DNA of 24,463 nucleotides from Elusimicrobiota bacterium. GTDB lineage: Bacteria; CG03; SLGR01; PWQF01. Under the pieces are notes generated by a model. That model was not told the DNA's origin and did not search any database. It worked only from the letters and a program-made list of their open reading frames with translations. Location: NCBI GenBank assembly GCA_003557485.1, contig PWOI01000036.1:1-24463 (forward strand), in the 5' to 3' direction. A program made the translations under genes and the position numbers. Shown in pieces: positions 1,582 to 24,463 of this stretch. Numbering within the stretch: the first letter of the stretch is position 1; the number at the start of each line of letters is the position of its first letter.

Positions 1582-1597
1582 AACTTTATCTCAGGTA
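1575..1597. terminator. Possible bidirectional hairpin between convergent genes
   Basis: The inverted repeat TACCTGA ... TCAGGTA (7-bp stem, 9-base loop) spans the stop codons of the bactofilin (+) and the lipoprotein gene (-). There is no clear T-run on either side, so its role as a terminator is weakly supported. Confidence 0.3.
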
Positions 1598-2110
1598 CCC
1601 AATAGCTTTATCTATATTTTCTCTGACACTGTCATTTCTGACAAGGTCTCTGGATATAAGCAGGTAGTCAATTGCCTTCGGGTACCTTAGTTCCTTAATT
1701 GATTCGCAGGCTCTCATTCTAACTTTCTCCTCTTCGCCTTCGTCTTCAATTACTTCAACAAGAGGAATTATACCGTGCGGAGTATTCATATACCCCATCA
1801 AATCAACAAGCCAATATCTATACCTGTAATTATCAGATGTTTTTAAATCTCTTATAAGAAGAGGCACCGCACCTTCCCCTATATCCATTAATATAACTGA
1901 TTCATTCATAGTTGAACTTCCCAATCTATCTAAGCTGACTGAATCTGCCAAATTTTTAACTCGCTCAAGGATATTTTCAACTCTCTGGATAGTCTCCGTG
2001 TCAATCTCGCCAGCAGGCGGCGGCACTACTATAACCGGTGGAGGGGTTTTGGCGCATCCTGCAATTAAAAACACAGTTAACGCAACTGCCGTAAATATTC
2101 TTTTAATCAT
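1586..2110 (-). CDS. Putative lipoprotein with HEAT-like helical repeats
   Basis: This 174-residue protein begins with a typical lipoprotein signal: charged MIKR, a hydrophobic core, and lipobox LIAGC with the lipidated Cys at 19. A Pro-rich linker (PPPVIVVPPP) follows, then a helical region (about 40-174). Segments such as GAVPLLIRDLK and GIIPLVEVIEDEG, each followed by arginine-rich helices, resemble HEAT or PBS-lyase-type repeats. No enzyme motif is visible. It is the last gene of the long leftward run, and its ATGA start overlaps the stop of the HD hydrolase gene by 4 bp, so it is probably co-translated. A link to nucleotide metabolism is not shown by sequence. Export and lipidation are confident, function is unknown. 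Confidence 0.75.
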   Translation of the reverse strand: MIKRIFTAVALTVFLIAGCAKTPPPVIVVPPPAGEIDTETIQRVENILERVKNLADSVSLDRLGSSTMNESVILMDIGEGAVPLLIRDLKTSDNYRYRYWLVDLMGYMNTPHGIIPLVEVIEDEGEEEKVRMRACESIKELRYPKAIDYLLISRDLVRNDSVRENIDKAIGYLR

Positions 2111-3144
2111 TTTTGGTTTTTGGCTTTTAGTTTCGAGTAAAGCTCCTGAGCCCTGACATCGGTAAGAGAAGCAACAAAATCACAGACTCCCCTGTGAGTT
2201 TCTTCATTTTTAAGGAAAGGCATCTCTTTTAAAATTTTCTCATAATTCTCCAAGTAATGAGAATATATCAGAGAAAGCATCTCGCGGGATCTAATTTCTC
2301 GAAAAGAACCGTGAAGCCCTGTATAGACTTTTCTGTAAAGAAAGCCTCTAAGCTCATCTGTAGCCTCCATGACTTCAGATGACATGGTTATATGCTTTTT
2401 ATCCAAGCTGTTTTCAACAACATCTTTTATCATCGTTATAAGCCGCTGATAAAAAGTGAGGCCGAGCACTTTTTCTGTACTTGCAGGCAAATCCTCCTTT
2501 TTTATTATTCCCATATTGAAAGCGTCATCCACATCATGATTTATATAAGCTATCCAGTCAGCAAACTGGACGACTTCGCCTTCAATAGTAGAGGTCTTTC
2601 CCTGGCCCTTTATATTTTCTCCGTGTACTTTATATACACTCCACTCCCCTTTTGAATGACCAGCTATCCCATTTCGTACTTCATAGGTCAGGTTAAGGCC
2701 TTTTCCTGCGTTTTCAAGTTTATCGACTACCCTAAGGCTCTGCTTCGCATGCCTGAAACTGAAAGGTGTAAGATCCCGGAGTATATCCTCACCTGCATGT
2801 CCGAAAGGAGTATGACCCAAGTCGTGTCCGAGAGCGATAGCTTCCACTAGATCTTCATTTACTTTAAGGGCTCTTGCCATATAACTTGCTGCAGCGGCTA
2901 CTTCCATTGTATGGGTCAGACGGGTTCGGAATCTTTCTCCGGCAGTTGAAAGAAAAACCTGTGTTTTATGCTTCAGTAGACGAAAGCTAACAGAATGAAG
3001 TATTTTATCTCTGTCTTTCTGATATTCCGTGCGTACCGGACAGGACTTTTCATCTTTTTTTCTGCCCCTGGTTTCTGTGCTTAAGGTTGCAAACCGGGAA
3101 AGAGATTCTTTTTCTCTTTTTTCAAACTCCTCGCGTATGAGCAT
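2107..3144 (-). CDS. dgt: dGTPase-like HD-domain deoxynucleotide triphosphohydrolase
   Basis: At 345 residues this matches the shorter dGTPase-like class. It has the N-terminal RTEYQKDRDKILHS motif and the HD metal site: H78 in RLTHTMEV, H107-D108 in GHDLGHTPFGHAGE with helper H111 and H116, and D196 in VVQFADWIAY. The family hydrolyses dNTPs to deoxynucleoside plus triphosphate in the cytoplasm. Here it would feed deoxynucleosides to the deaminases and phosphorylases encoded upstream, which is inference from context. Substrate preference among dNTPs cannot be read from sequence. Its stop overlaps the following lipoprotein start by 4 bp. It lies 19 bp after the cytidine deaminase gene. Confidence 0.88.
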   Translation of the reverse strand: MLIREEFEKREKESLSRFATLSTETRGRKKDEKSCPVRTEYQKDRDKILHSVSFRLLKHKTQVFLSTAGERFRTRLTHTMEVAAAASYMARALKVNEDLVEAIALGHDLGHTPFGHAGEDILRDLTPFSFRHAKQSLRVVDKLENAGKGLNLTYEVRNGIAGHSKGEWSVYKVHGENIKGQGKTSTIEGEVVQFADWIAYINHDVDDAFNMGIIKKEDLPASTEKVLGLTFYQRLITMIKDVVENSLDKKHITMSSEVMEATDELRGFLYRKVYTGLHGSFREIRSREMLSLIYSHYLENYEKILKEMPFLKNEETHRGVCDFVASLTDVRAQELYSKLKAKNQK

Positions 3145-3163
3145 TTTTTAAGTGATGTTGGCC

Positions 3164-3595
3164 TTATTTCTCAGAATTATTTTCTTTTATTCTGCGCAGG
3201 TTTTCCCTAAATGAGTCCTGATCATCAAAGTGAGGTATCAGATCTTTCGCTCTATATGATATTAACCCGCCTTCCGGATCAACACAAAAAATATCCGCTT
3301 CCTTTGCAAACTCAATAATAACCTGGCGGCAAGCTCCGCAGGGCATAGAGAGATTGCTTGATGATGTTGCAACAGCAACAGCTTTTATTTTTCTCTCACC
3401 TTCCGCAACTGCCCGGGTAACTGCAACACGCTCGGCACATATTGTAAGTCCGTAAGAAGCATTTTCAACATTGCAGCCGCCATATATTTTTCCTGATTCC
3501 CCCTCTACAGCAGCGCCTACGAGAAACCCGCTATAAGGGGCATACGCCCGCTCCCTGTACTCAAGCGCCGTCTGGATAAGTTTTTCATTTTTCAT
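3164..3595 (-). CDS. cdd: Cytidine deaminase
   Basis: This 143-residue protein is a homotetramer-type cytidine deaminase. The zinc and proton-shuttle site is C53-A54-E55 in TICAERVAV, and the second pair is C86 and C89 in PCGACRQV. NVENASYG (42-49) is the nucleoside-binding segment. It converts cytidine and deoxycytidine to uridine and deoxyuridine, which the pyrimidine nucleoside phosphorylase encoded in the same run can split. The start overlaps the end of the adenosine deaminase gene by 11 bp, and a GGAGG lies ten bases before the ATG. The fold is complete and nothing is missing. Confidence 0.95.
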   Translation of the reverse strand: MKNEKLIQTALEYRERAYAPYSGFLVGAAVEGESGKIYGGCNVENASYGLTICAERVAVTRAVAEGERKIKAVAVATSSSNLSMPCGACRQVIIEFAKEADIFCVDPEGGLISYRAKDLIPHFDDQDSFRENLRRIKENNSEK

Positions 3596-4625
3596 AAAAT
3601 TGCATCCTCCCTTTTATTTGTTTTATAAACTCTTCTTTCATTCTGTTTTTTTTCGCTTCATCCTGAAAGGAATACTCAACTCCATTCAATATTATATCCG
3701 CAAGGTCACTTACTTTAAGTCCAAGTTCCACTGCTTTATTATATTCATAAGTGAGGTCTATACCGCTGACTCCTCTGTCGTCCGTATTCAGTGTTATTAC
3801 AACACCCTTATCATGCAACTCTTTAAACGGATGGCAGTCATAACCATCAACAACCTGGGTATGGATATTTGAAGTAATGCATATCTCAAGAGGTATTCCC
3901 TTCTCAATAAGAATTTCGCGAAGATTCGGATCTTTTGCAAGGGCAACACCATGACCAATTCTGAGAGCTCCCATTTCAACCGCCTCAGCAATATTTTCAG
4001 GGCCGCCGGCTTCTCCGGCATGTATTGTCATATTTATTTCGTTTTTTCTGCAGAAATCCAGTGTTTCACGAAAATCCGATAACCCGTAACTTGTCTCATC
4101 CCCTGCTATATCAACGCCGCATACACCGTATTTCTTCATCCTTAGAGCCCATTCAGCAGTTTCTTTTATTTCTTCCGGTGTTGACCCTCTGTAGAGACAA
4201 AGAATAATGCCCGCTTTAATATCAAATTCTGAAGTGCCTTTTTCCAACCCCTTTAAAACTGATTCTATTACTTCAGGAACCGGAAAGTTTTCTGTTTTTT
4301 GCAGAACGGGTGCAAATCTTATCTCCATATATTTAGTGTTTTCATAGCTGCAGTCTCTCAAAAGTTCATAGGTCACCCTTTCCAGAGCATAAGGAGTTTT
4401 CAGGAGAGGATAGAACACATTAAAACGCTCAAGAAATTCACTGAGACTTTTGCAATCCGGAGGGACTCTGACATATTTCCTGAGTTCCTCCACATTATCT
4501 GCCGGAAGGTTATAATTCTGCCTGAGGGCAAGATCCAGCATGGTCTGTGTACGCACAGAGCCATCAAGATGACAGTGTAAATCTATTTTAGGCAGACTTC
4601 TGATAAATTTGTCTGAAACATTCAT
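3585..4625 (-). CDS. add: Adenosine deaminase
   Basis: The protein has 346 residues, the usual length. The metal ligands and catalytic residues of adenosine deaminase are present: H17 and H19 in DLHCHLDGSV, H202 and E205 in IHAGEAG, H225 in RIGHG, and D282-D283 in LNTDD. It deaminates adenosine and deoxyadenosine to inosine and deoxyinosine, the substrates of the purine nucleoside phosphorylase in this operon. Its ATG overlaps the end of the upstream P-loop kinase gene by 4 bp (ATGA), indicating translational coupling. The related enzyme adenine deaminase is encoded separately in this window, so both nucleoside-level and base-level adenine deamination are covered. Confidence 0.95.
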   Translation of the reverse strand: MNVSDKFIRSLPKIDLHCHLDGSVRTQTMLDLALRQNYNLPADNVEELRKYVRVPPDCKSLSEFLERFNVFYPLLKTPYALERVTYELLRDCSYENTKYMEIRFAPVLQKTENFPVPEVIESVLKGLEKGTSEFDIKAGIILCLYRGSTPEEIKETAEWALRMKKYGVCGVDIAGDETSYGLSDFRETLDFCRKNEINMTIHAGEAGGPENIAEAVEMGALRIGHGVALAKDPNLREILIEKGIPLEICITSNIHTQVVDGYDCHPFKELHDKGVVITLNTDDRGVSGIDLTYEYNKAVELGLKVSDLADIILNGVEYSFQDEAKKNRMKEEFIKQIKGRMQFYEK

Positions 4626-5260
4626 TTTTTTCTTTTTAAAAGCTCTACTAACTTTTCAACTCCCTCATCTAATTTGGTAAAGTCATCCGGGATCGGAGAG
4701 TCCGGGTATACAAAAATCACGGGAAAAGGCAGTTGTTCCTTAAGGTCCTTCTTATCATCGCTGCCGTAGGTTTTTTCCATTTCCTCCCTTGATACAAGAT
4801 GATCGTCACTTCCCTCTTTAATAGCCTGCTCGTGTCTGCGAACATTTCGTTGCCAGCATATTTCAAAAGGAACATCAAGGTATACTGCAATAGCTTCACT
4901 GATAATTGACTCCGAAAAATTTTTCAGTATCGAATGAACATAGTCTGGCCTTGAAAACTCAATAAAGATTAACCTGTCTTCCCCGGAACTCTTTTTCAGT
5001 TTTAAGACATCTTCATTGACCTTCTCTAAAATATCATCCCATACTTTATCATCGGTAACTTTGTACCCGCCATCTTCTGTTCTGCGACACCGTTTCCATT
5101 CTCCACTTTTTTCGTCCTCCATGAAGATATTCCAGAGTTTCGGAAAATCATCTATTCTGGGAAAAGACGTAAACATCTCTTCTTCCTCGAGCCGACTTAT
5201 AAGGCGCCTGTAAAAAGCTGATTTGCCGCAGCCGGGTATTCCAAGCAGAAAAACAATCAT
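4622..5260 (-). CDS. P-loop nucleoside/nucleotide kinase-like protein of unknown substrate
   Basis: This 212-residue protein opens with a Walker A loop GIPGCGKS (7-14) directly after the first beta strand, as in small P-loop kinases. A second hydrophobic strand RLIFIEFSRP (about 99-108) is a candidate Walker B-like segment, and CWQRNVRRHEQA (about 144-155) looks like the arginine-rich lid of such kinases. It does not match adenylate kinase, Tmk or Cmk closely enough to name. It overlaps the TIM-barrel gene upstream and add downstream by 4 bp each, which argues for a stoichiometric role in nucleoside or sugar metabolism. A deoxynucleoside or sugar kinase activity is inference only. Confidence 0.7.
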   Translation of the reverse strand: MIVFLLGIPGCGKSAFYRRLISRLEEEEMFTSFPRIDDFPKLWNIFMEDEKSGEWKRCRRTEDGGYKVTDDKVWDDILEKVNEDVLKLKKSSGEDRLIFIEFSRPDYVHSILKNFSESIISEAIAVYLDVPFEICWQRNVRRHEQAIKEGSDDHLVSREEMEKTYGSDDKKDLKEQLPFPVIFVYPDSPIPDDFTKLDEGVEKLVELLKRKK

Positions 5261-6270
5261 ATACCAAATACCTCGTTCAGGTATTGCGTTTCATCAGCAA
5301 GAATTTTTTCAGCATTAAGCAACTCATCCGTATCTCTTACAGCTGTTTCAACTACAATTGTATTTACTCCTTTGGAGCGGAATTTTTCAGACAGGTTCCT
5401 TAGGTTTTCCTCCCTTAAAAACCCTTTCTGGTAATGCAGCGGCGGATGAAATTTAAAAGGAGGATTTCCTCCGGGTTCCGGATTTATCCAGAAATCATTC
5501 AGATGTATCTGGTGAAGGATATTATCAGGAATTTCATCAACTATATCTTCGGGTTTTTTTCCTATGCTCTCACGGCTGAAATTTTTTTGGTGCATAGGAA
5601 GCCCTATTGTAAACCAGTGACCTATATCGAAACAGTATTTAACCTGAAATCCCTGGCCGTTAACCTTTTTTATAATACTAATTATGTCGGAATTATAGAC
5701 ACCATAAGTATCAAAGGCAGTATTATTTTCAAGGTGAAATACTATTCCTCTTTCATCTGAATAAGAAGAAAGTTCTTTTAGTGTCTTCTCAAGAGATTCA
5801 TCCACCATCTTCAGATATTCTCCCACAGCCTGATAGAAAGGCACGCTTCCCGGGTGCATAACAACACTTTCACATCCCAGTTCCGAAGCAAAATCGATAT
5901 ATCTTTTCTGCAATTCAACGGCTATAACCCTGTCAGATTCCTGAAATGCGCAAGTTGAAGCCGCAACATAAGTATAGGGAAGATGTAGCGAGAGAGTCAT
6001 GTTTTTTTCCAGAGCACAGGATTTTGACTCCGTAATTTCATCTTTACTCATTTCCAGAAAAGGATTGGGTACTCCGCCATCAAGCTCTATGTGTCCCAAC
6101 CCGATTTTTTCCCCGATAGAAACCTGGTTTACTATATCTCTCTTTGTTTTTATCTGTACCCTGGCATCCATATCTCCCACTGAAAGTGAGCCGGACTTTA
6201 AATCATCTCTTTCCCTCTCTGACAGAAAGGATGCTTCCAGCATATTAGTAAAATTTCTTCCTATTTTCAT
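5257..6270 (-). CDS. Xylose-isomerase-like TIM-barrel protein (sugar isomerase/epimerase family)
   Basis: This 337-residue protein has the AP-endonuclease-2/xylose-isomerase-like TIM-barrel pattern. Visible motifs are SLHLPYT, SVVMHPGS, VFHLENN (a glutamate metal ligand), KYCFDIGHWF (an Asp-x-x-His ligand pair), HQIHLNDFW and a late VVETA strand. These give the usual Glu/Asp/His set for a divalent metal. The family includes sugar and sugar-phosphate isomerases and epimerases as well as endonuclease IV; the specific DNA-repair motifs are not evident. Its ATG follows AAAGGAGAGATAA, 11 bp after the PfkB gene. The neighbouring kinase and phosphorylase genes suggest a pentose or pentose-phosphate substrate, which is unproven. 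Confidence 0.78.
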   Translation of the reverse strand: MKIGRNFTNMLEASFLSERERDDLKSGSLSVGDMDARVQIKTKRDIVNQVSIGEKIGLGHIELDGGVPNPFLEMSKDEITESKSCALEKNMTLSLHLPYTYVAASTCAFQESDRVIAVELQKRYIDFASELGCESVVMHPGSVPFYQAVGEYLKMVDESLEKTLKELSSYSDERGIVFHLENNTAFDTYGVYNSDIISIIKKVNGQGFQVKYCFDIGHWFTIGLPMHQKNFSRESIGKKPEDIVDEIPDNILHQIHLNDFWINPEPGGNPPFKFHPPLHYQKGFLREENLRNLSEKFRSKGVNTIVVETAVRDTDELLNAEKILADETQYLNEVFGI

Positions 6271-6281
6271 TTATCTCTCCT

Positions 6282-7229
6282 TTATTTTAAACCGTCTTTG
6301 ATACTTTCAAAATGAGAAATCTTTTTCAGATATTTAAATCTTTCCTCTACATCTTCTATAGTTATTTTTTTGAGCATATCTATGCTGAATCCTTCGACTG
6401 TATAAGATGCCACAACGCTTCCAAGGATAACCGCCTGGCGCAGGACAGAGTTCTCAACTCTCCCCCTTGAAGCTAAATACCCCATAAAGGCGCCGGCAAA
6501 ACTATCACCGGCCCCGGTAGGATCCGCTACACTTTCAAGAGGAACAGAAGGCGCGGTAAAAATTTCTATCTTTTTTCTTTCGGAAAAAAACACAGTAACT
6601 CCATACTCCCCCTGCTTAACTACAATAATTCTCGGTCCCATTCTGAATATCTTGTTGCATGCTGTTGTTAAATTAGATGATTCTCCAAGCTGCCTTGCCT
6701 CAGCATCATTAACAAGTAGATAATTGACTTTTTTGAGGGTCTCCATAAGTTCTTCTCTTTTATTTTCTATCCAGAAATTCATTGTATCCAAGGCAATAAC
6801 TCGCGGTGAATTCATTTCATTTACAACCTTAAGCTGAAGTTCCGGATCAATGTTAGCAAGAAAAAGATATTCGGCGTTTTTCTGCACCGCTGTTAACTTG
6901 GGTTTAAAATCCTGGAACACATTAAGCTCGGTCTTCAGTGTATGAGCAACATTCAAATCATATTCATATTTACCTTCCCATCTAAAAGTTCTTCCCTCTG
7001 CAACTTTCAAAGATGCCGTATCTATCCCCCTTTTATCCATATCTGATATATACTCTTTTGGAAAGTCCTTCCCAACAACCCCGACCAGACTAACAGGAGC
7101 GAAAAGACTCGATGCCCATGAAAAGTATACTGCTGAGCCTCCCAGCGAAGAAGACCTCCTGCCAAAGGGTGTTTCAATACAGTCCAACGCTACAGACCCT
7201 ACAACTACTATATTATTATTACCAGTCAT
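6282..7229 (-). CDS. PfkB-family carbohydrate/nucleoside kinase
   Basis: The protein has 315 residues with both PfkB signatures: the N-terminal glycine region SLGGSAVYF (about 28-36) and the C-terminal DPTGAGDSFAGAF (236-248), with catalytic base D242. Substrates in this family range over ribose, adenosine, inosine/guanosine and sugar phosphates. Sitting directly after an MTA-phosphorylase-type gene with a one-base stop/start overlap (TGATG), it may phosphorylate a nucleoside or the ribose-1-phosphate released by phosphorolysis. A ribose-1-phosphate kinase of this superfamily is known from archaea. The exact substrate cannot be read from the sequence. Confidence 0.85.
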   Translation of the reverse strand: MTGNNNIVVVGSVALDCIETPFGRRSSSLGGSAVYFSWASSLFAPVSLVGVVGKDFPKEYISDMDKRGIDTASLKVAEGRTFRWEGKYEYDLNVAHTLKTELNVFQDFKPKLTAVQKNAEYLFLANIDPELQLKVVNEMNSPRVIALDTMNFWIENKREELMETLKKVNYLLVNDAEARQLGESSNLTTACNKIFRMGPRIIVVKQGEYGVTVFFSERKKIEIFTAPSVPLESVADPTGAGDSFAGAFMGYLASRGRVENSVLRQAVILGSVVASYTVEGFSIDMLKKITIEDVEERFKYLKKISHFESIKDGLK

Positions 7230-8095
7230 CAGTTTTTCTCCATTATAACTTTCAATTTTTCCTTAAGGGAAGGGTCTATTTTATCCGGGGAAGTAACGAC
7301 AGCAGTCGCAACTGCATCCCCGCAACTGCATTGCCTTGGAGCATCGGGATCTATTTTTCTTATTACACCCTCTACAACTTTCTTTGCGTTAAGGGCATTT
7401 TTTTCAAACTGCTTTACAACCATTTCCGCCGTAACGGCATCGTGCTGGGGGTACCAGCAGTCATAATCCGTGACCATTGCAACTGTCGCATAGCATATCC
7501 CGGCCTCACGGGCAAGTTTTGCTTCCGGAATTGCAGTCATCCCTATTACATCTACTCCCCAGCTTCGGTATATAAGAGATTCCCCAAGTGTGGAAAACTG
7601 GGGTCCTTCAATGCATATATATGTTCCTCCCCTGTGTACCTTTATGCTGGTTTCTTCTGCAACATCAGCGGCAATCCCAGCCAAAGTTTCGCATACAGGT
7701 TTGGAAAAGGAAATATGACCAACGCATCCGCTTGCAAAAAAAGAGGCCGCCCGGGATTTTGTCCTGTCAAAATACTGGTCTACTACTACTATATCACCCA
7801 GTGAAATATGCTCCTTCATACTGCCCACGGCACTGACAGAAATAATTTGTTTTACACCAATTTTTTTCAACGCGTAGATATTCGCCCTTGAATTAACTTC
7901 AGATGGAATAATATAATGACCCCTCCCGTGCCTGGGAAGAAACGCGACTTCTTTTCCGTGCAGTTTACCGGTAATAACGGCATCGGAAGTTTTACCGAAA
8001 GGAGTCTGTATTTCCTGTTCAGAAATATCGCTTAAACCTTCCAGTTCATATACTCCGCTTCCGCCTATTACTCCTATTCTTATCTTTTTAGTCAT
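7229..8095 (-). CDS. mtnP: S-methyl-5'-thioadenosine phosphorylase-type purine phosphorylase
   Basis: At 288 residues this is a full MTAP-family trimer-type phosphorylase. It has the phosphate-binding GGSG (10-13) and PRHGRGH (54-60), the ribose/phosphate segment GGTYICIEGPQFST (156-169), and MTAIPEAKLAREAG followed by MVTDYD, where D210 and D212 are the aspartates that favour adenine over hypoxanthine. It should phosphorolyse methylthioadenosine and possibly adenosine to adenine plus the sugar-1-phosphate. Adenine can then be deaminated by Ade from the same operon. Bacterial MTAP homologues vary in specificity, so the 6-aminopurine preference is more certain than the methylthio preference. 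An ATG follows GGGG at suitable distance, 13 bp after the DHH gene. Confidence 0.88.
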   Translation of the reverse strand: MTKKIRIGVIGGSGVYELEGLSDISEQEIQTPFGKTSDAVITGKLHGKEVAFLPRHGRGHYIIPSEVNSRANIYALKKIGVKQIISVSAVGSMKEHISLGDIVVVDQYFDRTKSRAASFFASGCVGHISFSKPVCETLAGIAADVAEETSIKVHRGGTYICIEGPQFSTLGESLIYRSWGVDVIGMTAIPEAKLAREAGICYATVAMVTDYDCWYPQHDAVTAEMVVKQFEKNALNAKKVVEGVIRKIDPDAPRQCSCGDAVATAVVTSPDKIDPSLKEKLKVIMEKN

Positions 8096-8108
8096 TATTT
8101 ACCCCGTT

Positions 8109-9464: not shown

Positions 9465-9473
9465 AGACTCCTT

Positions 9474-10781: not shown

Positions 10782-10785
10782 AAAA

Positions 10786-11595: not shown

Positions 11596-11597
11596 TT

Positions 11598-14494: not shown

Positions 14495-14515
14495 GGAAAC
14501 TCCTTTGTCGGTCTA

Positions 14516-16543: not shown

Positions 16544-16548
16544 CTTTT

Positions 16549-16556
16549 TCCTTCTT
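16549..16556 (-). promoter_or_regulatory. Ribosome binding site that decides the transketolase start
   Basis: AAGAAGGA on the - strand lies five bases before ATG 16543-16541. The upstream in-frame ATG at 16582 has no such sequence. Confidence 0.6.
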
Positions 16557-16600
16557 TCGTGATAAAACATCCTTATTTTCACATATTTGCACAGTTTTAA

Positions 16601-16629
16601 ATGCTAATATATTTCCCCACTTATATCAA
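16601..16629 (-). promoter_or_regulatory. Possible internal promoter ahead of tkt
   Basis: On the - strand, TTGATA (16629-16624), a 17-bp spacer and TAGCAT (16606-16601) lie in the 90-bp gap after the response regulator gene. This is one of the longest gaps in the leftward run. Transcription would start near 16594, giving a leader of about 50 bases. This would let the nucleoside genes be expressed apart from the microcompartment genes. It is based on sequence match only. Confidence 0.4.
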
Positions 16630-16633
16630 ATTC

Positions 16634-17005
16634 TCACTCGGGAGACCCGACCTTCTCTTCTATCTGTCGCAACAGGGCCTGAGAGTCAAAAGGTTTGACA
16701 ATATACCCTTCAGCGCCGGCCTGAAGTCCTTTCATTACTTCCATCTCCTGGCCAAGAGCCGAAAGTATTATTATTGGTATAGATGAAGTGGATTCATTTT
16801 CTTTAATTCGACGGGTTGCTTCAACACCGTCCATTTCCGGCATCATAATATCCATAAGTATTAAATCAGGCAATTCCTTTTCAACCGTATCAACGGCTTC
16901 ACGCCCGTTCTCTCTGCTGACAATTTTATACTTTCTTTTTTCAAGAAGAAACTTTAAAAGTTTAACTGTCGTTCTGTCATCCTCTACTATCATTATCTTC
17001 GTCAT
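16634..17005 (-). CDS. Single-domain response regulator (receiver only)
   Basis: The protein has 123 residues and is only a receiver domain. D9-D10 form the acidic pocket, D52 in LILMDIMMPEMDG is the phosphoacceptor, S82 is the switch residue and K104 in VKPF is the conserved lysine. There is no output domain, so it must act by protein-protein contact, as CheY- or Spo0F-type proteins do. It follows the histidine kinase gene after 48 bp with a good AAGGAGAG site, so the two are likely partners. The unusual AAA+ protein encoded just upstream is a candidate downstream target, which is speculation. Confidence 0.92.
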   Translation of the reverse strand: MTKIMIVEDDRTTVKLLKFLLEKRKYKIVSRENGREAVDTVEKELPDLILMDIMMPEMDGVEATRRIKENESTSSIPIIILSALGQEMEVMKGLQAGAEGYIVKPFDSQALLRQIEEKVGSPE

Positions 17006-17053
17006 TATTTATTCTCTCCTTGTAAATAAACACCTATTTCTAATGCTGCAATT

Positions 17054-18952
17054 TCAGTTCAACGGCAGTATAAATGTAACTTCGGCACCGCCACCGGGTG
17101 CGGAATCTATACTAATTTCACCTCCGTGTCCTAAAATTATGCTGCGTGCCAGCGTCAGGCCAAGCCCCATTCCTTCCATATCTCTTGTTCTCGGGTTCTG
17201 ATTCTGGAAAAATTTCTCGAAAACTCTTTTTTTTAACTTTTCGCTTATGCCTATCCCTGAGTCGATGACGGCAACCTGAACAAAATCCCCCTTTCCTGCA
17301 GCCGCAACTGTTACCTTTCCTCCCTGGGACGTAAATTTAACCGCATTATCTAGAAGACTTTTAATGGCTTTTTTAATCTTACCCCTGTCAACATTTATTT
17401 CCAGGAACTTGTCTTTCAAGTCAATTTTACAATTTATATTTTTATTTTCAAAAATTTCGCTGTACTCAAAAACACACTCTTTTATAAGTTCTTCAACACT
17501 TACTTTCTCTTTGTTAAGTTTGCTGTTTCCCCGCGTAACTGAAGCCGTATCAATAACATCATTTATAGATGACTCCAATTTCTCCACAGAACTTTCTATG
17601 GTTTTTACGAAATCTTCCTGTTTTTCATTCAGCTCACCTCCATGACCTCCCAACAGCAACTCCGTGAAGCCTTTTATGGAAGTCAAAGGTGTTTTAAGTT
17701 CATGAGATATAAGAGAAATAAAATTATCCTTGACTATGTTAAGTTCTTCCAACTGGCGGTTACTGTTGACAACCGTTTTTAAAGTTTCATCCCTTTCTAT
17801 AAATTCGGCCAGCCGGCTGGCATACATTTCAAGAATTTCGAAATCCCTTGCGGAGTAATCACTATCCCGGCTTTTAAGAAGAAAAACACCTTTTATTGTG
17901 TCTGCTACTTTTGCCGGAAGCGATATAAGAGAAGCCGAGTTAAATGAATCAAATACAACTTTTGTTTTTCCCGTATAGGAAAGTGAATCAATTTCAATAA
18001 TCCTGTGGTCTGACAGAAGCTCTGCCGGTATTTCAATTTCTTTAAGTTTTTTCTTCAGGCTGGATGAAGAAGCCGCTCTAAGTCTTAATCTGTCGCCGAA
18101 AAGCTCGAAATAAGCTCCCTCATCCAGGCCCATAATTGAAGATATTTCTCTGAAAACCGTTTTGGCCGCGTCTTCGGGTGTTGATGAAGAGTAAACCGCA
18201 ACCGAAAGGTTGTAAAGGGATTTCAGTTCTTTAACACGGTTAACAAGACGCATATTGGTTGATGCCAACTCGTCGCCGGCGCTGTCTGCCTGAGCGGCAG
18301 TCCTCATGCTCTGCAGCTCCATCTGCCTTATTTTTGAGGCATTTTTATACATCCCCTTTATTAGCAGACTTATGGCGTGGAAATTTTCCATTCCGTATTT
18401 CGCAATCTGTTTACTGTCTCCCGAAAAACCCACAAAACCATTTAGAACCTTTCCATCAAAAAGCGGAAAATCAACTACTGTATGTCCGGGGAGAATCCCA
18501 ATAACCGCAGGTTTTTCATTTATAATTGGCCCTGGGTCAGGAACTTCTTTAATATTAAAATATTCCCCGGCGTCTCTAAATGTCGCTTTTTCCCGGCTTC
18601 GGCCCATCACTATACTGTAACGAAATACTCCGTCATCCCCTTTAATTATAACCCAGCACCCGCTAATTCCTTTCAGCTTCATTGTCTCTGAAAAAAGATC
18701 CCGCACCTGATTTTGAATTTTATGCACTGTCGAAGCAGCTTCTGACATGGAAGAACAGGCTTTTTTGTATATATTCCTGAAATGCATTAAATCATATATT
18801 GAACTCCGGAAGGTTTTATAAAAATAAAAACCAGACAAGCATAGACAAACAAAAGACAACCATAAAATAGAGAAAAGCTGCATAAATATATATAAAGGTA
18901 AAAGCAGTAAGGACAACAGAAGCATATAAGCTGCGAATTTAGGCGATTTCAT
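17054..18952 (-). CDS. Membrane histidine kinase with two GAF-like sensor domains
   Basis: The 632-residue protein starts with two transmembrane helices (about 8-24 and 27-46) and almost no external loop. A coiled segment and two GAF-like regions follow (about 80-200 and 240-385). The HisKA domain has H417 in SLISHELKTPLTS. The ATPase domain has the N box DNAVKF (535-540), the G1 box DSGIGIS (564-570) and the G2 box GMGLGLTLA (594-602). It should sense a cytoplasmic or membrane signal and phosphorylate the receiver protein encoded next. It begins 2 bp after the DnaA-like gene, so all three regulatory-looking genes are probably co-expressed. Confidence 0.92.
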   Translation of the reverse strand: MKSPKFAAYMLLLSLLLLPLYIFMQLFSILWLSFVCLCLSGFYFYKTFRSSIYDLMHFRNIYKKACSSMSEAASTVHKIQNQVRDLFSETMKLKGISGCWVIIKGDDGVFRYSIVMGRSREKATFRDAGEYFNIKEVPDPGPIINEKPAVIGILPGHTVVDFPLFDGKVLNGFVGFSGDSKQIAKYGMENFHAISLLIKGMYKNASKIRQMELQSMRTAAQADSAGDELASTNMRLVNRVKELKSLYNLSVAVYSSSTPEDAAKTVFREISSIMGLDEGAYFELFGDRLRLRAASSSSLKKKLKEIEIPAELLSDHRIIEIDSLSYTGKTKVVFDSFNSASLISLPAKVADTIKGVFLLKSRDSDYSARDFEILEMYASRLAEFIERDETLKTVVNSNRQLEELNIVKDNFISLISHELKTPLTSIKGFTELLLGGHGGELNEKQEDFVKTIESSVEKLESSINDVIDTASVTRGNSKLNKEKVSVEELIKECVFEYSEIFENKNINCKIDLKDKFLEINVDRGKIKKAIKSLLDNAVKFTSQGGKVTVAAAGKGDFVQVAVIDSGIGISEKLKKRVFEKFFQNQNPRTRDMEGMGLGLTLARSIILGHGGEISIDSAPGGGAEVTFILPLN

Positions 18953-18954
18953 TT

Positions 18955-20964
18955 TTATTTTTTTCCCTCATCCTTACGTGCGCATATGGCTATATCAAGC
19001 ATAAGATTTAAAGCATCGCTTTCTTTAATATCTGAACGGCTCAAGATTTCAAATGGAACACCTGTTTTTTCCATAGATTTGCCGAGCCGGTTTCTGAAAG
19101 TATCCGCTTTTATACCGGACTCTTCACCGGGCTCCATACATAAAGCAATATCCGCTTCATTGGTATCAGCCATATGGGCAATTTTATCAAAATTAATATC
19201 TGACGAGGAATCATAGTAATGCACAAATAAAGGTTTGATGTAGAAATTGAATTTTTTATGCATTGCCAGTTTATTGAGTTTATCAACCAGTTTGCCTGCA
19301 TCTTCCTGACCCTCTGCAGGTATAAAATATCCGGCCTTTATCATTCTTATATCTTTTTTTTCCTCTCCTATAATGCAATTTTCGATATCTGTTTTCTCAG
19401 ATTCTTTTTTAAGAGATGCCTTCTCACTTTCTTCTTTTTTCTCTGCCTTTATGTTTTCTTCAATATCAGAAGAGGAACTCTCTTCCTTTCTTGACACAGG
19501 AGGAGCCGGCTTCTTTTCTTCATGCGGAGGCGGCGGGGTTGTATCTTCAGAAGCATACTCCCGGCAGGACTGGCAATAGTACCTGTCATACTGGCTGATA
19601 TATCTTAAAGACGAGGAACATTTGCTGCATAACCTGGCCGGCTCCGGAGCCGGAGGAACCTGAAAAGGCTGTGCAGCAGGCGGCATTTGAACGGGATCCT
19701 GGTATTGACCGCAGTTGTTACAATACCACCTTCTGTACTGAGGGACAAAAACAAGAGCTCCGCTGCAGTAACTGCAAACATTGGCATGATGCCGTAAAGG
19801 AGAGTGGGGAGGAGGCGGGGGATACTGGTACTGCTGAGTTTGAACAACTTGAGGCGGCGTTTCGGGAGATGCGGAGTTGCGGCTTCCTGAATCCGTTTTT
19901 TCAAAATCTGTCTCTCCATCTGTTTTTCCTTCCGGCTTCTTTTTTTCCTTGGGAAGTATGTTTACTATTATATCCTTAACAAGCTCAAGGTTTATATCGT
20001 CATCAGCAAGCTCTCTGTAGGCGCTTATGCGATTCAGTATTCCTTCAAGCTCTCTGATATTGGAAGTAAGTCTTTCGGCAATATAATTAATTACATCATC
20101 TTCAAGCGTTAGTCCCTTTTCTTCTGCTTTTTTCTTAAAAATTGCTTTTCTTGTTTCAAAATTAGGGCTTTTAATATCGGTAGTCAACCCCCATTCAAAC
20201 CTTGACCTCAACCGGTCCTCCAACGTAGCAAGTTCCTTAGGCGGCTTATCCGAAGTTATTACTATCTGCTTACCTACATCGTGCATCTCGTTGAATATGA
20301 GAAAAAACTCCTCCTGAGTGGACTCTGACTGCTGAAGGAACTGTATGTCATCAATAAGAAGAATATCTATCTTCTTATATTTTTCCCTTACTTTTTTTAT
20401 TTCACCTTCTTCTATGGCGCTTACTATTTCATTAATAAACTCCTGAGTTGACACATACACCACAGTAAGCTCAGGAAAATACTCCATAGCATAATTTCCT
20501 ATGGACTGCATAAGATGGGTTTTCCCGAGTCCTACGCCACCATATATAAAAAGAGGGTTATAATTTTTTCCGGGATTCTCTGCAACAGCCTTGCACGCAG
20601 CATAAGTAAACCGGGTATTTGCTCCGACAATAAATTTTTCAAAAGTATATCCTTTTTTAAGTTTTTTTAATTTTTTTTCCACTGAAGGGTTCTGTTTTAT
20701 ACTCTGATCTTTTTCTTCCGGAGAATTTTTAATGGTTTTCTCAATGTGAGTAATTATTTTTTGTTTTATGTCGTCATTTATTCCGTATAAAAAAAGCGAA
20801 AAGTTGTAGTCTCCTTCCGGCGACGGAAAAGGACGGCTGCTCACCTTACTCAGGCTGGAGGCAATACTCTCAACATCTTTTTCCGACCCCGATATATTCA
20901 GCCTGTAGCGATTCTTATCCTTTTGACTTGGAGAATACTCCAGGGAGTACTTTTTAATAGCCAC
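18955..20964 (-). CDS. DnaA-type AAA+ ATPase with two zinc ribbons and novel C-terminal domain
   Basis: This 669-residue protein carries a DnaA-type AAA+ core (about 104-340) but is not normal DnaA. It has the lead-in YTFEKFIVGANTRFTYAA, Walker A GGVGLGKT (142-149), Walker B ILLIDDIQFL (201-210), the arginine-finger segment LRSRFEWGL and sensor 2 SNIRELEG. Residues 1-80 do not look like DnaA domain I. After residue 340 there is no domain IV helix-turn-helix. Instead there are a Pro/Gln-rich linker, two CxxC-x14-CxxC zinc ribbons (C397/C400/C415/C418 and C446/C449/C464/C467), a charged coil rich in Glu and Lys (about 480-540), and an unrecognised alpha/beta domain (about 540-669). The start is GTG with no ribosome site and lies within a short leader frame. 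Function is unknown: perhaps a scaffold or regulator, not an origin binder. Confidence 0.88.
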   Translation of the reverse strand: MAIKKYSLEYSPSQKDKNRYRLNISGSEKDVESIASSLSKVSSRPFPSPEGDYNFSLFLYGINDDIKQKIITHIEKTIKNSPEEKDQSIKQNPSVEKKLKKLKKGYTFEKFIVGANTRFTYAACKAVAENPGKNYNPLFIYGGVGLGKTHLMQSIGNYAMEYFPELTVVYVSTQEFINEIVSAIEEGEIKKVREKYKKIDILLIDDIQFLQQSESTQEEFFLIFNEMHDVGKQIVITSDKPPKELATLEDRLRSRFEWGLTTDIKSPNFETRKAIFKKKAEEKGLTLEDDVINYIAERLTSNIRELEGILNRISAYRELADDDINLELVKDIIVNILPKEKKKPEGKTDGETDFEKTDSGSRNSASPETPPQVVQTQQYQYPPPPPHSPLRHHANVCSYCSGALVFVPQYRRWYCNNCGQYQDPVQMPPAAQPFQVPPAPEPARLCSKCSSSLRYISQYDRYYCQSCREYASEDTTPPPPHEEKKPAPPVSRKEESSSSDIEENIKAEKKEESEKASLKKESEKTDIENCIIGEEKKDIRMIKAGYFIPAEGQEDAGKLVDKLNKLAMHKKFNFYIKPLFVHYYDSSSDINFDKIAHMADTNEADIALCMEPGEESGIKADTFRNRLGKSMEKTGVPFEILSRSDIKESDALNLMLDIAICARKDEGKK

Positions 20965-20995
20965 TGTTTTTAACGGGGTTTTTTTCTTTATTCAC
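20954..20995 (-). CDS. Possible 13-codon leader peptide overlapping the DnaA-like start
   Basis: A GTG at 20995 lies seven bases after AAGGA (21007-21003) and opens a short frame MNKEKNPVKNSGY ending at TAA 20956-20954. The GTG that begins the DnaA-like protein (20964) lacks its own ribosome site and sits inside this frame. Reinitiation or coupling through the leader is a reasonable explanation. The alternative is that this is a chance frame. Confidence 0.35.
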   Translation of the reverse strand: MNKEKNPVKNSGY

Positions 20996-21023
20996 TTTAA
21001 GTTCCTTTGAAACGGCATATTTA

Positions 21024-21608
21024 TTAATTAATAATCTTTTTAACGGAATTTCTCAAGGCAGGGAATTTTTTATTGAATTCCGCTGAAATAATTTTTTCTT
21101 TTTCTTTAAGATGTCTTCCGGACGGTTCTTGCAATCCCGCACAGTTAATTTTAAAATTCATTATGCCGCTTTCGTAGGCGGCCCTTGCAAGCTCCAATGC
21201 AATGCCTACATCTGTTATTATGTTTTTAAATCTATTCAGCTCCTGCTTTTCTATAATACTGACAAGAATGAAGGCGGCCTCCGATATATCAAGGGAGACC
21301 TCTGCCGATTCTTTAATGGCCCGATGGAGGCTGCTTCCCCCCTCCTTCCAGTACTTCATCACCTTACTGAAAATACGGGAATCTTCCCGGGCAAGACAAA
21401 GAGATTTTTCCTTTAAACTTTCCAACTCTTTCTCTGTCTGTAAGGCATCCGGATCTCTTTTGTCTTTTTTCAATACAGCAATTCTCAGGGACATAAGCAT
21501 CAGTGCGCATCCGAGAGAATTTATTACTCCCGCGACATTTCCACCTCCGGGAGTTGAAGAATCCGAAGCAACACTCTCAATATATTTTAGGAGCTTATCG
21601 TCTAACAT
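21024..21608 (-). CDS. Cyclodeaminase/cyclohydrolase-fold protein (FTCD_C family)
   Basis: The 194-residue all-helical protein matches the C-terminal cyclodeaminase domain of formiminotransferase-cyclodeaminase and the stand-alone FchA cyclohydrolase. The diagnostic segment STPGGGNVAGVINSLGCALMLM (around 18-39) is present at the N-terminus. Known members act on formimino- or methenyl-tetrahydrofolate. No formiminotransferase domain is attached and no histidine or purine fermentation gene is next to it. It overlaps the preceding small gene by 7 bp, so it belongs to the microcompartment transcript. Whether it works on folate here or has been recruited for another substrate is not known. Confidence 0.85.
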   Translation of the reverse strand: MLDDKLLKYIESVASDSSTPGGGNVAGVINSLGCALMLMSLRIAVLKKDKRDPDALQTEKELESLKEKSLCLAREDSRIFSKVMKYWKEGGSSLHRAIKESAEVSLDISEAAFILVSIIEKQELNRFKNIITDVGIALELARAAYESGIMNFKINCAGLQEPSGRHLKEKEKIISAEFNKKFPALRNSVKKIIN

Positions 21609-21883
21609 TTTTCCACCCTTAACCCTTTTTCTTCTATAAGAAGTTTCGCCATCGGAGTAACTATTGCCTTTTCCGGCAGTCTGATAACTGAGGCCCCCTT
21701 ATTTACCTCTTTCTCAACAACCTCATATGTGATAAGAGAACCGGTATTTTTAAGGTAACTTTTAGAGGGAAGATAGGGTTTTTGCATGAAAAAACCCTTC
21801 CTGTGCCCTGCTTTTTCACCTGCAGGCGATATATTTTTTTCACATATAATGTCAACCAAAATATCTGCGATTAATTTTTCCAC
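21602..21883 (-). CDS. Small microcompartment-associated protein with EutT-N-like motif and possible targeting helix
   Basis: The protein has 93 residues. It opens with a short amphipathic helix MEKLIADILVDIICEKN, the kind of sequence that serves as an encapsulation peptide for BMC cargo, followed by a flexible Gly/Pro/Lys region. Its last 45 residues contain ITYEVVEKEV and VIRLPEKAIVTPMAKLL. This resembles the N-terminal (LPA-x-LTPSA) motif of EutT-type cobalamin adenosyltransferases, also seen as small pieces in BMC loci. No catalytic residues can be named. The start is GTG with no clear ribosome site. It lies between the BMC-H and FTCD_C genes. A cargo or assembly role is inferred. Confidence 0.65.
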   Translation of the reverse strand: MEKLIADILVDIICEKNISPAGEKAGHRKGFFMQKPYLPSKSYLKNTGSLITYEVVEKEVNKGASVIRLPEKAIVTPMAKLLIEEKGLRVEKC

Positions 21884-21939
21884 GTTTTAATTATTCAGGC
21901 CCGCCGGAATAAAAACTTTCTCCCTGTATCTATGAAATA

Positions 21940-22242
21940 TTACTGCCGGGTTTTCTTGAGATGCGCCTGGGGAAGAATCATCTCAAGATCATCATGGGGA
22001 CGGGGAATCACGTGAACACTTACAAGTTCCCCAACTTTCTGAGCGGCTGCCGAACCTGCTTCAACAGCAGCGCGGACAGCGCCCACCTCACCCCTGACCA
22101 TAGTGGTTACATAACCGTGGCCTATCTTTTCGTAGCCTGCAAGGTCAACTTTAGCTGCCTTAACCATTGCATCCGAAGCTTCTATCATTCCAACAAGACC
22201 TACAGTCTCAATCAATCCCAATGCCATTTTTGAACCTGCCAT
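21940..22242 (-). CDS. BMC-H hexameric microcompartment shell protein
   Basis: With the ATG at 22242, placed four bases after AGGAGGT, the protein has exactly 100 residues. It begins [30 protein letters not shown], the hallmark start of BMC-H (Pfam BMC) proteins, and continues through the pore-loop segment [25 protein letters not shown] and [12 protein letters not shown]. The pore loop reads K39-I40-G41-H42-G43 where many metabolosome hexamers have a KxGSG-like loop, so a histidine lines the predicted pore. It forms the flat facets of a protein shell. It is the only BMC-H in this window and no BMC-T is visible. Confidence 0.95.
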
Positions 22243-22246
22243 ATTT

Positions 22247-22253
22247 ACCTCCT
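22247..22253 (-). promoter_or_regulatory. Ribosome binding site that decides the BMC-H start
   Basis: AGGAGGT lies four bases before the ATG at 22242. It rules out the upstream in-frame start at 22299, which lies within the aldolase gene. Confidence 0.75.
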
Positions 22254-22255
22254 GT

Positions 22256-23677
22256 TCAGTATCCTCCTTCTCCGCCGGACTTTCCGCCTGCAATAGCAAC
22301 AGAAGCTGAGGCTCCTATTCTTGTCGCACCGGCCTCTACCATTTCCCGGGCATCTTCAGCTGACCTTACTCCGCCGGACGCTTTTACTCCCATTGACGGC
22401 CCTACAGTTTCCCTCATAAGCATGATATCTTCTATCTTAGCGCCACCCGGTCCGAATCCGGTAGAAGTCTTAACGAAATCAGCACCGGCGCTTTTTGACA
22501 GCTGACATGCTTTTTTTATCTGTGCTTTGTCAAGAAGCGCCGTTTCCAGAATAACTTTTAATACCTTTCCTTTTGCTGCTTCACGGACGGCTTTTATATC
22601 ATCTTCAACAAGACGCCAGTTTCCGGATTTAAGGGCTCCCACATTCAAAACCATATCTATTTCATCCGCACCGTTGGCTATAGCATCTCTTGCTTCAATC
22701 GCCTTTACTGTAGGCGTTGTAGCTCCCAGAGGGAAGCCCACAACGGTTGTTATCCCGACACCGCTGTCCTTCAAAAACTGCTTTGCCGTTCTGACGTTGG
22801 ACGGATTTACGCATACTGTAGCAAATCTATACTGTCTGGCTTCATCGCATAGTTTTTTAATCTCTTCGGTAGTCGCATCGGCATTAAGAAGGGTATGATC
22901 TATGAGACGGGCAAGGTCTCCGGAAACCTTGCCTCCCGTTTTTTTGGCTGATATCCTGTCGGCTCCCGAATTAACAACATTTCTTACATCATCCTCCCTG
23001 TAAACAACACAGAGCCCGCACTCTATACAATCCTGAACATCTCCGCCACAAGGCGCACCTGAAAAATCCGGCACCTTAATCCCTCCCGTAAAACTGTGCG
23101 AAGACTGTCCTAGACCAAACACTTCTGATGCCTCACGTGCCAGATTTTTTACTGACACCACTACCGCTCCAAAATTCCGCAAAGTATTTAAATACTCGTT
23201 TATCTTTCTCATATAGATAGAAGTTGCAGGAGGTTCCGGAGCTCCGCAACATATTACAGCATCCTTTGCAATAATTATTTTTATGTTATGCCTGAATGCA
23301 AGAAGAAGAATATTGCAGGCAGCATTATCAGCTATCATAGATGCGGTTTTAGCTGCGCCGTTAAGGGTAAGAACAGGAACAATTATTCCCGAAATTTTAT
23401 CAAGTATACTCCTGTCCCACATTTCGTTTTCCTCAACAATTCTCTTAACGCCGGATGAGAGCACCCTTTCACGGCCTATAATCCTCTGCGCGGCCGGAGT
23501 CATATAAGCAGAGAAAACAGCTCCCCGTCCGGATAGCTCAGATATCTGCCCCAGAGATCTTTCCACCTCTCTGTCTCCTCCCATAAAAACAAGGAGTATT
23601 TCTTTCCTGTCTTTTCCGGAATTCTTTAACTTTTCAACTGTTTCGCAGGTAATTTTCTGTATAAGGCTTTCTTTCAC
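22256..23677 (-). CDS. deoC: Flavoprotein-like domain fused to deoxyribose-phosphate aldolase, BMC cargo
   Basis: With the GTG at 23677 (eight bases after AAGGAGG) the protein has 473 residues. It begins with an amphipathic helix [21 protein letters not shown], resembling a BMC encapsulation peptide. Residues about 25-195 look like a Rossmann-type Flavoprotein domain ([43 protein letters not shown]). A Cys-rich joint follows with C210, C217, C220 and C223 (CIECGLC). Residues about 250-473 are a complete [16 protein letters not shown]341 in [11 protein letters not shown], Schiff-base lysine K403 in FVKTSTGFG and K432 in [13 protein letters not shown] splits deoxyribose-5-phosphate to glyceraldehyde-3-phosphate and acetaldehyde. 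The usual DeoC is about 220 residues, so half of this protein is additional. The flavin and metal roles are inference. Confidence 0.92.
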
Positions 23678-23685
23678 TTTAAAGT

Positions 23686-23692
23686 CCTCCTT
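23686..23692 (-). promoter_or_regulatory. Ribosome binding site that decides the DeoC-fusion start
   Basis: AAGGAGG is followed by eight bases and then GTG at 23677. A TTG six codons earlier lies in front of this site and overlaps the shell-protein stop; it would put the ribosome site inside the coding region. Confidence 0.7.
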
Positions 23693-23988
23693 CAATGATA
23701 TTTACGGCTCTTGCCTTTCCGGTATACGCTGTCAACAATACCGGCTATTATCGCCCTCACCGGAGCCCTTTCATAACCTAAAATCTGGCTACAGGCGTTT
23801 CCTTCATCTATTATTATTACTGTATCGCCGACACCGGCTCCGGTTTTAATATCAACAGCAAGCTGTACTTCTCCGGTCTGACGAAGAGAGATCTCATCAA
23901 CCGGCTGAATCAGCATTAGTTTTTTCCCTTCAAGCACAGGATGTTTTCTTGTTGCCCATACATTTCCGACTACTTTCGCTATAAACAC
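23692..23988 (-). CDS. EutN/CcmL-family pentameric shell protein (BMC-P), second copy
   Basis: With a GTG start at 23988 the protein has 98 residues, starting [29 protein letters not shown]. This is the classical EutN/CcmL N-terminus, followed by [22 protein letters not shown] and [13 protein letters not shown]. Pentamers cap the vertices of the icosahedral shell. The GTG overlaps the TAG stop of the first BMC-P gene (TAGTG), with AAGGA eight bases before it. A longer frame extends to 24045 but that part is not EutN-like and lies within the neighbouring gene. Confidence 0.92.
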
Positions 23989-24296
23989 TATTTTAATCCT
24001 TCCATCGATACACCGTCTATTATACCAACTATGGAAAAAGAACATATAGGATATTCTTCGAAAGCATGACAGGCTTCCCGGCTTCCGACATAAAAAACAT
24101 ACTCCCCCGCACCGGCTCCTACCGAATCAAGAGCAACTACAGATTTACCTGAGTCTTCGGTTTCATCTTTTCCGCTATTGAGAGCATCCCTGAGTTGCTG
24201 CCACTTCATCGGTTTAATAAGCAGTATTTTTTTTCCTTCCACTGTGGGATACTTGCGGGTTGCTACGACCCTGCCTACAACTTTACCCGGAAGCAT
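23988..24296 (-). CDS. EutN/CcmL-family pentameric shell protein (BMC-P), first copy
   Basis: The protein has 102 residues and starts MLPGKVVGRVVATRKYPTVEGKKILLIKP, with a following SVVALDSVGAGAGEYVFYVGS and FSIVGIIDGVS, as in EutN/CcmL proteins. It is clearly paralogous to the BMC-P encoded next but has an insertion (ALNSGKDETEDSGKS, about 58-72). Two different pentamer proteins in tandem suggest mixed vertex types or tuned expression. The start overlaps the end of rpiB by 14 bp. Confidence 0.92.
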   Translation of the reverse strand: MLPGKVVGRVVATRKYPTVEGKKILLIKPMKWQQLRDALNSGKDETEDSGKSVVALDSVGAGAGEYVFYVGSREACHAFEEYPICSFSIVGIIDGVSMEGLK

Positions 24297-24463
24297 TTTC
24301 GATATCCTTTATCATATTAAGTCTGTCCTGATGACGCCCTCCCTCGAAATTTCCACTGAGAAACGCTATTATTATTTTCTTTGCTATTTTAAATCCGGTC
24401 CTATCAGCACCAAGACAAATCACATTAGCATTATTATGCATCACACCCATACGGGTATCTTCG
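24283..24463 (-). CDS. rpiB: Ribose-5-phosphate isomerase B, C-terminal part (partial at window edge)
   Basis: The last 60 codons are in the window. They read EDTRMGVMHNNANVICLGAD, then FKIAKKIIIAFLSGNFEGG and RHQDRLNMIKDIE before TAA at 24285-24283. This is the C-terminal pattern of the RpiB/LacAB family (HNxANVxxLG, and FEGGRH). The enzyme interconverts ribose-5-phosphate and ribulose-5-phosphate. It heads the BMC genes seen here. The N-terminal two thirds, including any catalytic cysteine, lie beyond the right edge. Confidence 0.9.
   Translation of the reverse strand, partial: EDTRMGVMHNNANVICLGADRTGFKIAKKIIIAFLSGNFEGGRHQDRLNMIKDIENASG

Follow-up and report, generated by a model that had tools for sequence, protein, structure and literature searches.

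What feeds a sugar phosphate utilizing (SPU) microcompartment, and in which direction do its enzymes run? SPU loci are among the most widespread bacterial microcompartment (BMC) types, yet what they consume, and which way they run, is judged from gene content, which has been read in two opposed ways, as DNA catabolism or as aldehyde storage. The question is raised here by a row of genes in a draft genome of an Elusimicrobiota bacterium (2.07 Mb, 86.6% complete), in which shell genes and a DeoC-type aldolase are joined to genes of nucleoside breakdown. The row lies on contig PWOI01000036.1 (C113), whose entire 24,463 bp form the stretch analyzed here, hereafter the window. The locus is an SPU-type microcompartment, a known type for which a role in DNA breakdown is already proposed in the passages devoted to it by Axen 2014 (PMC4207490) and Sutter 2021 (PMC8217296). 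Our analysis suggests that the row is probably a deo-type nucleoside-catabolism row with its aldolase step relocated to the microcompartment. Its gene order is kept across four families of one order, which offers shell-bearing and shell-less versions of the same row, so that the question becomes testable with named genes.

Gene content of the row

An earlier note, made from the sequence of the window, described a same-strand locus joining BMC shell, DeoC and nucleoside-breakdown genes. Profile searches (Pfam and TIGR/NCBIfam models, scores in bits) bore out these families. The row comprises 24 genes, one of them an RpiB fragment, running from 24463 down to 1586 on the minus strand; 11 neighboring pairs overlap and the largest gap is 59 bp. 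From the right edge, the features are:

24285..24463, minus: 3' end of RpiB2 (canonical Cys-type paralog), truncated by the contig end; overlaps the end of contig C84, and RpiB2 precedes BMC-P in relatives
23988..24296, minus: BMC-P shell pentamer (EutN/CcmL); PF03319, 70 bits
23692..24045, minus: BMC-P shell pentamer (EutN/CcmL), copy 2; PF03319, 81 bits
22256..23695, minus: DeoC fusion (N-terminal helix, UbiX/EpiD-like flavoprotein domain, four-Cys linker, DERA); TIGR00126, 290 bits (cut-off 117), motifs, model and fold match
21940..22299, minus: BMC-H shell hexamer, start probably ~22233; PF00936, 98 bits
21602..21883, minus: small protein of 93 aa with a 'TPMAK' motif close to the C-terminus; no match in the family search, conserved place beside the locus in relatives
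21024..21608, minus: FTCD_C/FchA-like protein (cyclodeaminase or cyclohydrolase family); PF04961, 97 bits; FchA model 66 bits, far under its cut-off
18955..20964, minus: DnaA-like AAA+ protein; PF00308, 229 bits; TIGR00362 over residues 69-343 only
17054..18952, minus: sensor histidine kinase (HK) with a GAF domain; HisKA, HATPase_c, GAF_3; H-box
16634..17005, minus: single-domain response regulator (RR); receiver-like sequence by direct reading, conserved position
14516..16582, minus: transketolase (Tkt); NF004559, 577 bits
12782..14494, minus: adenine deaminase (Ade); TIGR01178, 604 bits
11598..12785, minus: phosphopentomutase DeoB; TIGR01696, 463 bits
10786..11595, minus: purine nucleoside phosphorylase (PNP); TIGR01700, 310 bits
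9474..10799, minus: pyrimidine nucleoside phosphorylase (PyNP); TIGR02644, 562 bits
8109..9464, minus: DHH/DHHA1 phosphoesterase, distantly RecJ-like; PF01368, PF02272; RecJ models under cut-off
7229..8095, minus: methylthioadenosine-phosphorylase-family enzyme (MTAP); TIGR01694, 314 bits
6282..7229, minus: PfkB-family kinase (sugar or nucleoside); PF00294; every NCBIfam model under cut-off
5257..6270, minus: xylose-isomerase-like TIM-barrel protein; PF01261
4622..5260, minus: P-loop kinase-like protein; AAA_18/AAA_33, under cut-off
3585..4625, minus: adenosine deaminase (Add); TIGR01430, 282 bits
3164..3595, minus: cytidine deaminase (Cdd); TIGR01354, 138 bits
2107..3144, minus: dGTP triphosphohydrolase (dGTPase); NF002327, 424 bits
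1586..2110, minus: HEAT-repeat lipoprotein-like protein, the row's loosely attached end; PF13646; beside the row in the shell-less relative G005 too

Several details of the earlier description change. Of RpiB the window contains just the C-terminal 179 bp, at its right edge, which rules out a whole gene there. Of the two purine phosphorylases proposed, PNP stands and the gene at 7229-8095 moves to the MTAP family, while DeoC retains its assignment as DERA with the correction that the gene encodes a fusion.

DERA, phosphopentomutase and both the purine and the pyrimidine phosphorylase lie on one strand, a clustering of the deo type, and DeoB and PyNP are the genome's only strong copies. The FTCD_C-like protein, the DnaA-like ATPase, the histidine kinase and the response regulator separate the shell half from the nucleoside half. 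Promoter and terminator scans of the row returned more sites than shuffled sequences, yet a clear internal boundary was not found.

The second half of the organelle

The aldehyde dehydrogenase (AldDH), PduL and further shell genes that the earlier note expected beyond the right edge were found in the same genome, at the end of contig C84, together with the remaining BMC-domain genes found in the genome. This end reads Rho, 5'-nucleotidase (PF02872, 145 bits; hydrophobic N-terminus), GGDEF protein, TIM, PduL (PF06130, 247 bits), BMC-H, BMC-P, AldDH (86% identical to that of G001, the nearest relative compared), PduS, BMC-T, RpiB1 (PF02502, 183 bits, hence a pfam02502 member in the locus) and RpiB2, which is cut; RpiB1 is thus whole on C84, with most of RpiB2. 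BMC-H, BMC-T and BMC-P are all present, one BMC-H and two BMC-P in the window and one of each type on C84.

The last 154 bp of C84 overlap positions 24310-24463 of the window (the start of the reversed window) at 86% identity, which may reflect strain variation or a duplicated (tandem) rpiB. Judging from synteny rather than from an assembled joint, C84 and C113 would be adjacent in the source genome. G001 breaks in the same neighborhood.

Conservation of the row within the order

G002, which belongs to a different family of the same order, carries the complete arrangement on a single contig, in the order 5'-nucleotidase (5NT)-GGDEF-TIM-PduL-BMCH-BMCH-BMCP-AldDH-PduS-BMCT-RpiB1-RpiB2-BMCP-BMCP-DeoC-BMCH-small protein-FTCD_C-DnaA-like-RR-Tkt-Ade-DeoB-PNP-PyNP. 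Both halves also share one contig in G006, in a G002-like order as far as PNP, where the contig ends. Portions of the row in matching order are found in G001 and G007, and a second contig of G004 reads Tkt-Ade-DeoB-PNP-PyNP-DHH-MTAP-PfkB-TIM barrel-kinase-Add-Cdd-dGTPase, exactly as in the window. An extended DeoC and at least Tkt lie on one contig in five of the seven shell-bearing genomes (G000, G001, G002, G006 and G007, the source genome counted). Contig ends hide the joint in G003 and G004, and none of the seven contradicts linkage. Finding this order again in other genera and families puts the row far beyond chance. A product of single-gene chances presumes independent genes and was set aside as evidence.

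The comparison with G005 (97% complete, 6% contamination) shows which features are missing along with the organelle. Its whole genome yielded no PF00936, PF03319, PduL or BMC-type AldDH, and it keeps the order Rho-5NT-TIM-RpiB2-DeoC-FTCD_C-DnaA-like-HK-RR-Tkt-DeoB-PNP-PyNP-MTAP-Cdd. Shell, AldDH, PduL, the Asp-type RpiB described below and the aldolase extension are absent together. The G005 DeoC, of 231 aa and devoid of an N-terminal extension, forms a very long branch in the DeoC tree. Replacement by a foreign gene was considered for this reason, and the placement of the enzyme with the order was not rejected.

The notion of one functional unit, which the earlier note drew from gene order and overlaps, thereby rests on more than overlaps, because the order is kept across four families and the row is kept in shell-less G005. 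The notion holds within the order; outside it, deoB lies elsewhere or is absent, an outcome that the earlier note had named as counting against such a unit.

The aldolase fusion and putative cargo targeting

The DERA domain of the window DeoC carries the Lys/Asp/Lys catalytic motifs. An AlphaFold model of the fusion displays, from the N-terminus, a helix, a Rossmann-like domain, a linker of low confidence that carries a Cys motif, and the DERA barrel. Modeled alone (mean pLDDT 87), the N-terminal part matches the fold of the UbiX/EpiD/DmrB FMN proteins with probability 1.00; its Pfam flavoprotein match is under the cut-off. The motif ahead of DERA, C-x6-9-C-x2-C-x2-C, occurs in this phylum as well as in L038, L040, L041 and G108; DeoC proteins from loci free of shell genes did not show its CxxCxxC core. 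It represents a possible Fe-S or Zn site.

Shell-bearing genomes conserve an N-terminal peptide of AldDH (MDINRDEIASVVREVIARLE-like) in addition to the DeoC extensions, which likely mark both enzymes as cargo. PNP, PyNP, DeoB and Ade start at their catalytic domains with no extension. AldDH and DeoC being extended and the nucleoside enzymes not, the shell boundary would therefore lie at deoxyribose-5-phosphate. Scored by the hydrophobic moment of their N-termini, putatively targeted and untargeted enzymes could not be told apart.

Two further relatives, L113 (Endomicrobia) and L052 (Elusimicrobium), encode DERA and no BMC domains; their DeoC proteins fall among those of shell-bearing relatives in the tree, and the extension is absent. 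Where the shell is missing, the extension thus appears to be missing too, which would fit a role in packaging; the correlation comprises three cases.

A Cys-to-Asp change in RpiB1

Alignment to solved RpiB structures places an Asp at the catalytic Cys position of RpiB1. BMC-associated RpiBs of this Asp type occur in about 30 genomes of several phyla and at every SPU locus surveyed (e.g. L006:2921-3373). The Cys is kept in RpiB2 and in the RpiBs of shell-less G005 and L113; the Cys type is either the second paralog or, in shell-less relatives, the sole RpiB. In LacAB the Cys is essential, in RpiB it has been proposed as the base, and the M. tuberculosis enzyme uses a Glu at another position (PMC3755991). 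RpiB1 retains the GSDHGG start motif and the EHDNAN histidine, and its Asp could still serve as a base.

A tentative and rather doubtful extension combines both unusual proteins: the Asp-type RpiB may act differently on deoxyribose-phosphate, for instance by opening the ring for DERA, and the redox-equipped aldolase, with an FMN-type domain in this order and a possibly Fe-S-binding Cys motif, may couple aldol cleavage to electron flow via PduS.

Distribution outside the order

Within the phylum, families f5 and f6 likewise possess SPU genes and, mostly, an Ade-DeoB-PNP-PyNP cluster, on separate contigs. Several f5 contigs (G008, G010, G011 and G012) extend ~8 to 18 kb beyond the shell genes without Tkt, Ade, DeoB, PNP or PyNP; that of G009 stops too early to judge linkage. 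True Elusimicrobia mostly have the SPU set without a full-scoring DeoB, and none of 32 further genomes, mostly SPU-bearing, showed deoB in a comparable SPU row. Two looser neighborhoods in other phyla, namely two BMC-P-like genes near deoB in G066 and, in G027, a BMC-H and a flavoprotein gene ~2 kb from deoB on the other strand, were not counted as the same arrangement. Because the coupling is conserved across the order and not in sister families or other SPU lineages, the fusion of the two gene sets is, on present sampling, a lineage-specific feature of this order.

Neighboring genes

No DnaA DNA-binding domain was recognized in the DnaA-like protein (18955-20964), which gave weak zinc-ribbon matches instead. 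This ATPase is kept next to the histidine kinase and/or the response regulator in the row, shell-less G005 included, and L113 has a 44% relative of it close to DeoC.

A conserved protein of 300-324 aa with three BMC domains per chain is encoded away from the main locus in G002, G003, G004, G006, G007 and G001 (L136-L141). It was not found in the source genome, and it is absent from shell-less G005; two further families (f138 and f111) contain distant matches over its full length. Known shell proteins have one or two BMC domains. In several shell-bearing genomes the TIM genes (L025, L027, L028, L126 and L127) are preceded by a short in-frame stretch with an 'ITP.AKE'-like motif that resembles the end of the window's 93-aa protein; this stretch was not seen before TIM in G005 or G001.

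Proposed function and alternatives

An exported 5'-nucleotidase would yield free nucleosides, from which cytosolic deaminases and phosphorylases would release the bases and leave (deoxy)ribose-1-phosphate, to be converted by DeoB into the 5-phosphates. Deoxyribose-5-phosphate would enter the shell, where the putatively targeted AldDH, with PduL and PduS, would convert acetaldehyde to acetyl-CoA and acetyl-phosphate and regenerate the cofactors; TIM and transketolase would take up the C3 and C5 sugars. Nucleosides as the input, already put forward in the earlier note, agree with the nucleoside-pathway enzymes and the nucleotidase in the row, and for this BMC class DNA had been proposed before as the input. 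From this arrangement we infer that the genes are co-transcribed, that the aldolase step is encapsulated, in which direction it runs and that nucleosides are the physiological feed.

The deaminases, the nucleotidase and the dGTPase catalyze effectively irreversible breakdown steps, and the phosphorylases, DeoB and DERA reversible ones. The one-way enzymes make catabolism the favored direction over aldehyde storage; they are support for it and not proof, given the reversible steps. Storage would have the shell AldDH run toward acetaldehyde at the expense of NADH and DERA condense it with glyceraldehyde-3-phosphate to deoxyribose-phosphate, a sugar that the neighboring enzymes would store or reuse. 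For the DERA/RpiB microcompartments of Atribacteria, such a reductive sink has already been published (Nobu et al. 2016, cited by PMC6281690), and the reversibility of DERA, DeoB and the phosphorylases would allow it. We consider it improbable here, as the cytidine, adenosine and adenine deaminases, the dGTPase and the 5'-nucleotidase have no evident storage use and PduL, downstream of acetyl-CoA, suits oxidation.

Several observations weigh against a catabolic row with an encapsulated aldolase step. The DnaA-like/HK/RR block and the gaps of 48-59 bp between the halves could house a separate promoter. The phosphorylases, DeoB and DERA catalyze reversible steps, and DeoB and PyNP have no other strong copy in the genome, so that these enzymes also serve ordinary salvage. 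Sister families f5 and f6 and other SPU lineages keep the two sets uncoupled, and the C84-C113 joint rests on synteny with an overlap of just 86% identity. The regulators between the sets, the separate contigs of f5/f6 and the Elusimicrobia that mostly have SPU genes without a full-scoring DeoB would also fit two independent units, in which chance or shared housekeeping regulation placed a general nucleoside-salvage operon next to an SPU microcompartment with no metabolic hand-off. This is slightly less probable still than storage: the order is kept in four families and in shell-less G005, the product of DeoB is the substrate of the putatively targeted DERA, and 5'-nucleotidase flanks the organelle genes on their other side in several genomes. 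An assembly chimera, with the window or C84 stemming from another organism in the bin, would explain the imperfect overlap, and G001, a close relative, is a sediment MAG too. Such a chimera is highly improbable, as both halves share one contig in G002 and G006, DeoC, shell and nucleoside genes are contiguous within the window itself, and C84 and C113 are about equally distant from G001.

Comparison with known systems

The enteric deo operon has the order deoC-deoA-deoB-deoD. Like it, the present row clusters DERA, pyrimidine phosphorylase, phosphopentomutase and purine phosphorylase on one strand; unlike it, the row has shell genes around an extended DERA, numerous extra genes and a two-component/DnaA-like block. 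A tie between DERA and a possible protein compartment, with nucleoside use proposed, also exists in the Family 4B A-domain encapsulin DeoC operons of Thermococcales (PMC8346489), which differ in being archaeal and of the HK97 fold, with no BMC shell and no acetaldehyde-handling core.

As far as described in the relevant passages on Atribacteria (PMC6281690, PMC7542362, PMC7736352), their microcompartments share shell genes with DERA and, in some, an RpiB-type protein and AldDH; linked nucleoside genes are not described there, and the loci are read as aldehyde recycling, NADH-sink or storage devices. Searches that covered mostly the main texts of openly accessible papers returned no report linking an SPU locus to nucleoside phosphorylases, DeoB, deaminases or a nucleotidase. 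In the main-text passages on SPU loci (PMC4207490, PMC8217296), the shared features are shell genes, a DeoC-type aldolase (pfam01791), a pfam02502 protein, AldDH and, in some, PduL, PduS and TIM. Those passages name no nucleoside phosphorylase, DeoB, deaminase or nucleotidase, all of which are present here, and compared with the loci they describe, the aldolase here bears a flavoprotein domain. What appears to be new is thus the physical coupling of an SPU organelle to a nucleoside route, along with the Cys-to-Asp change in BMC-associated RpiB.

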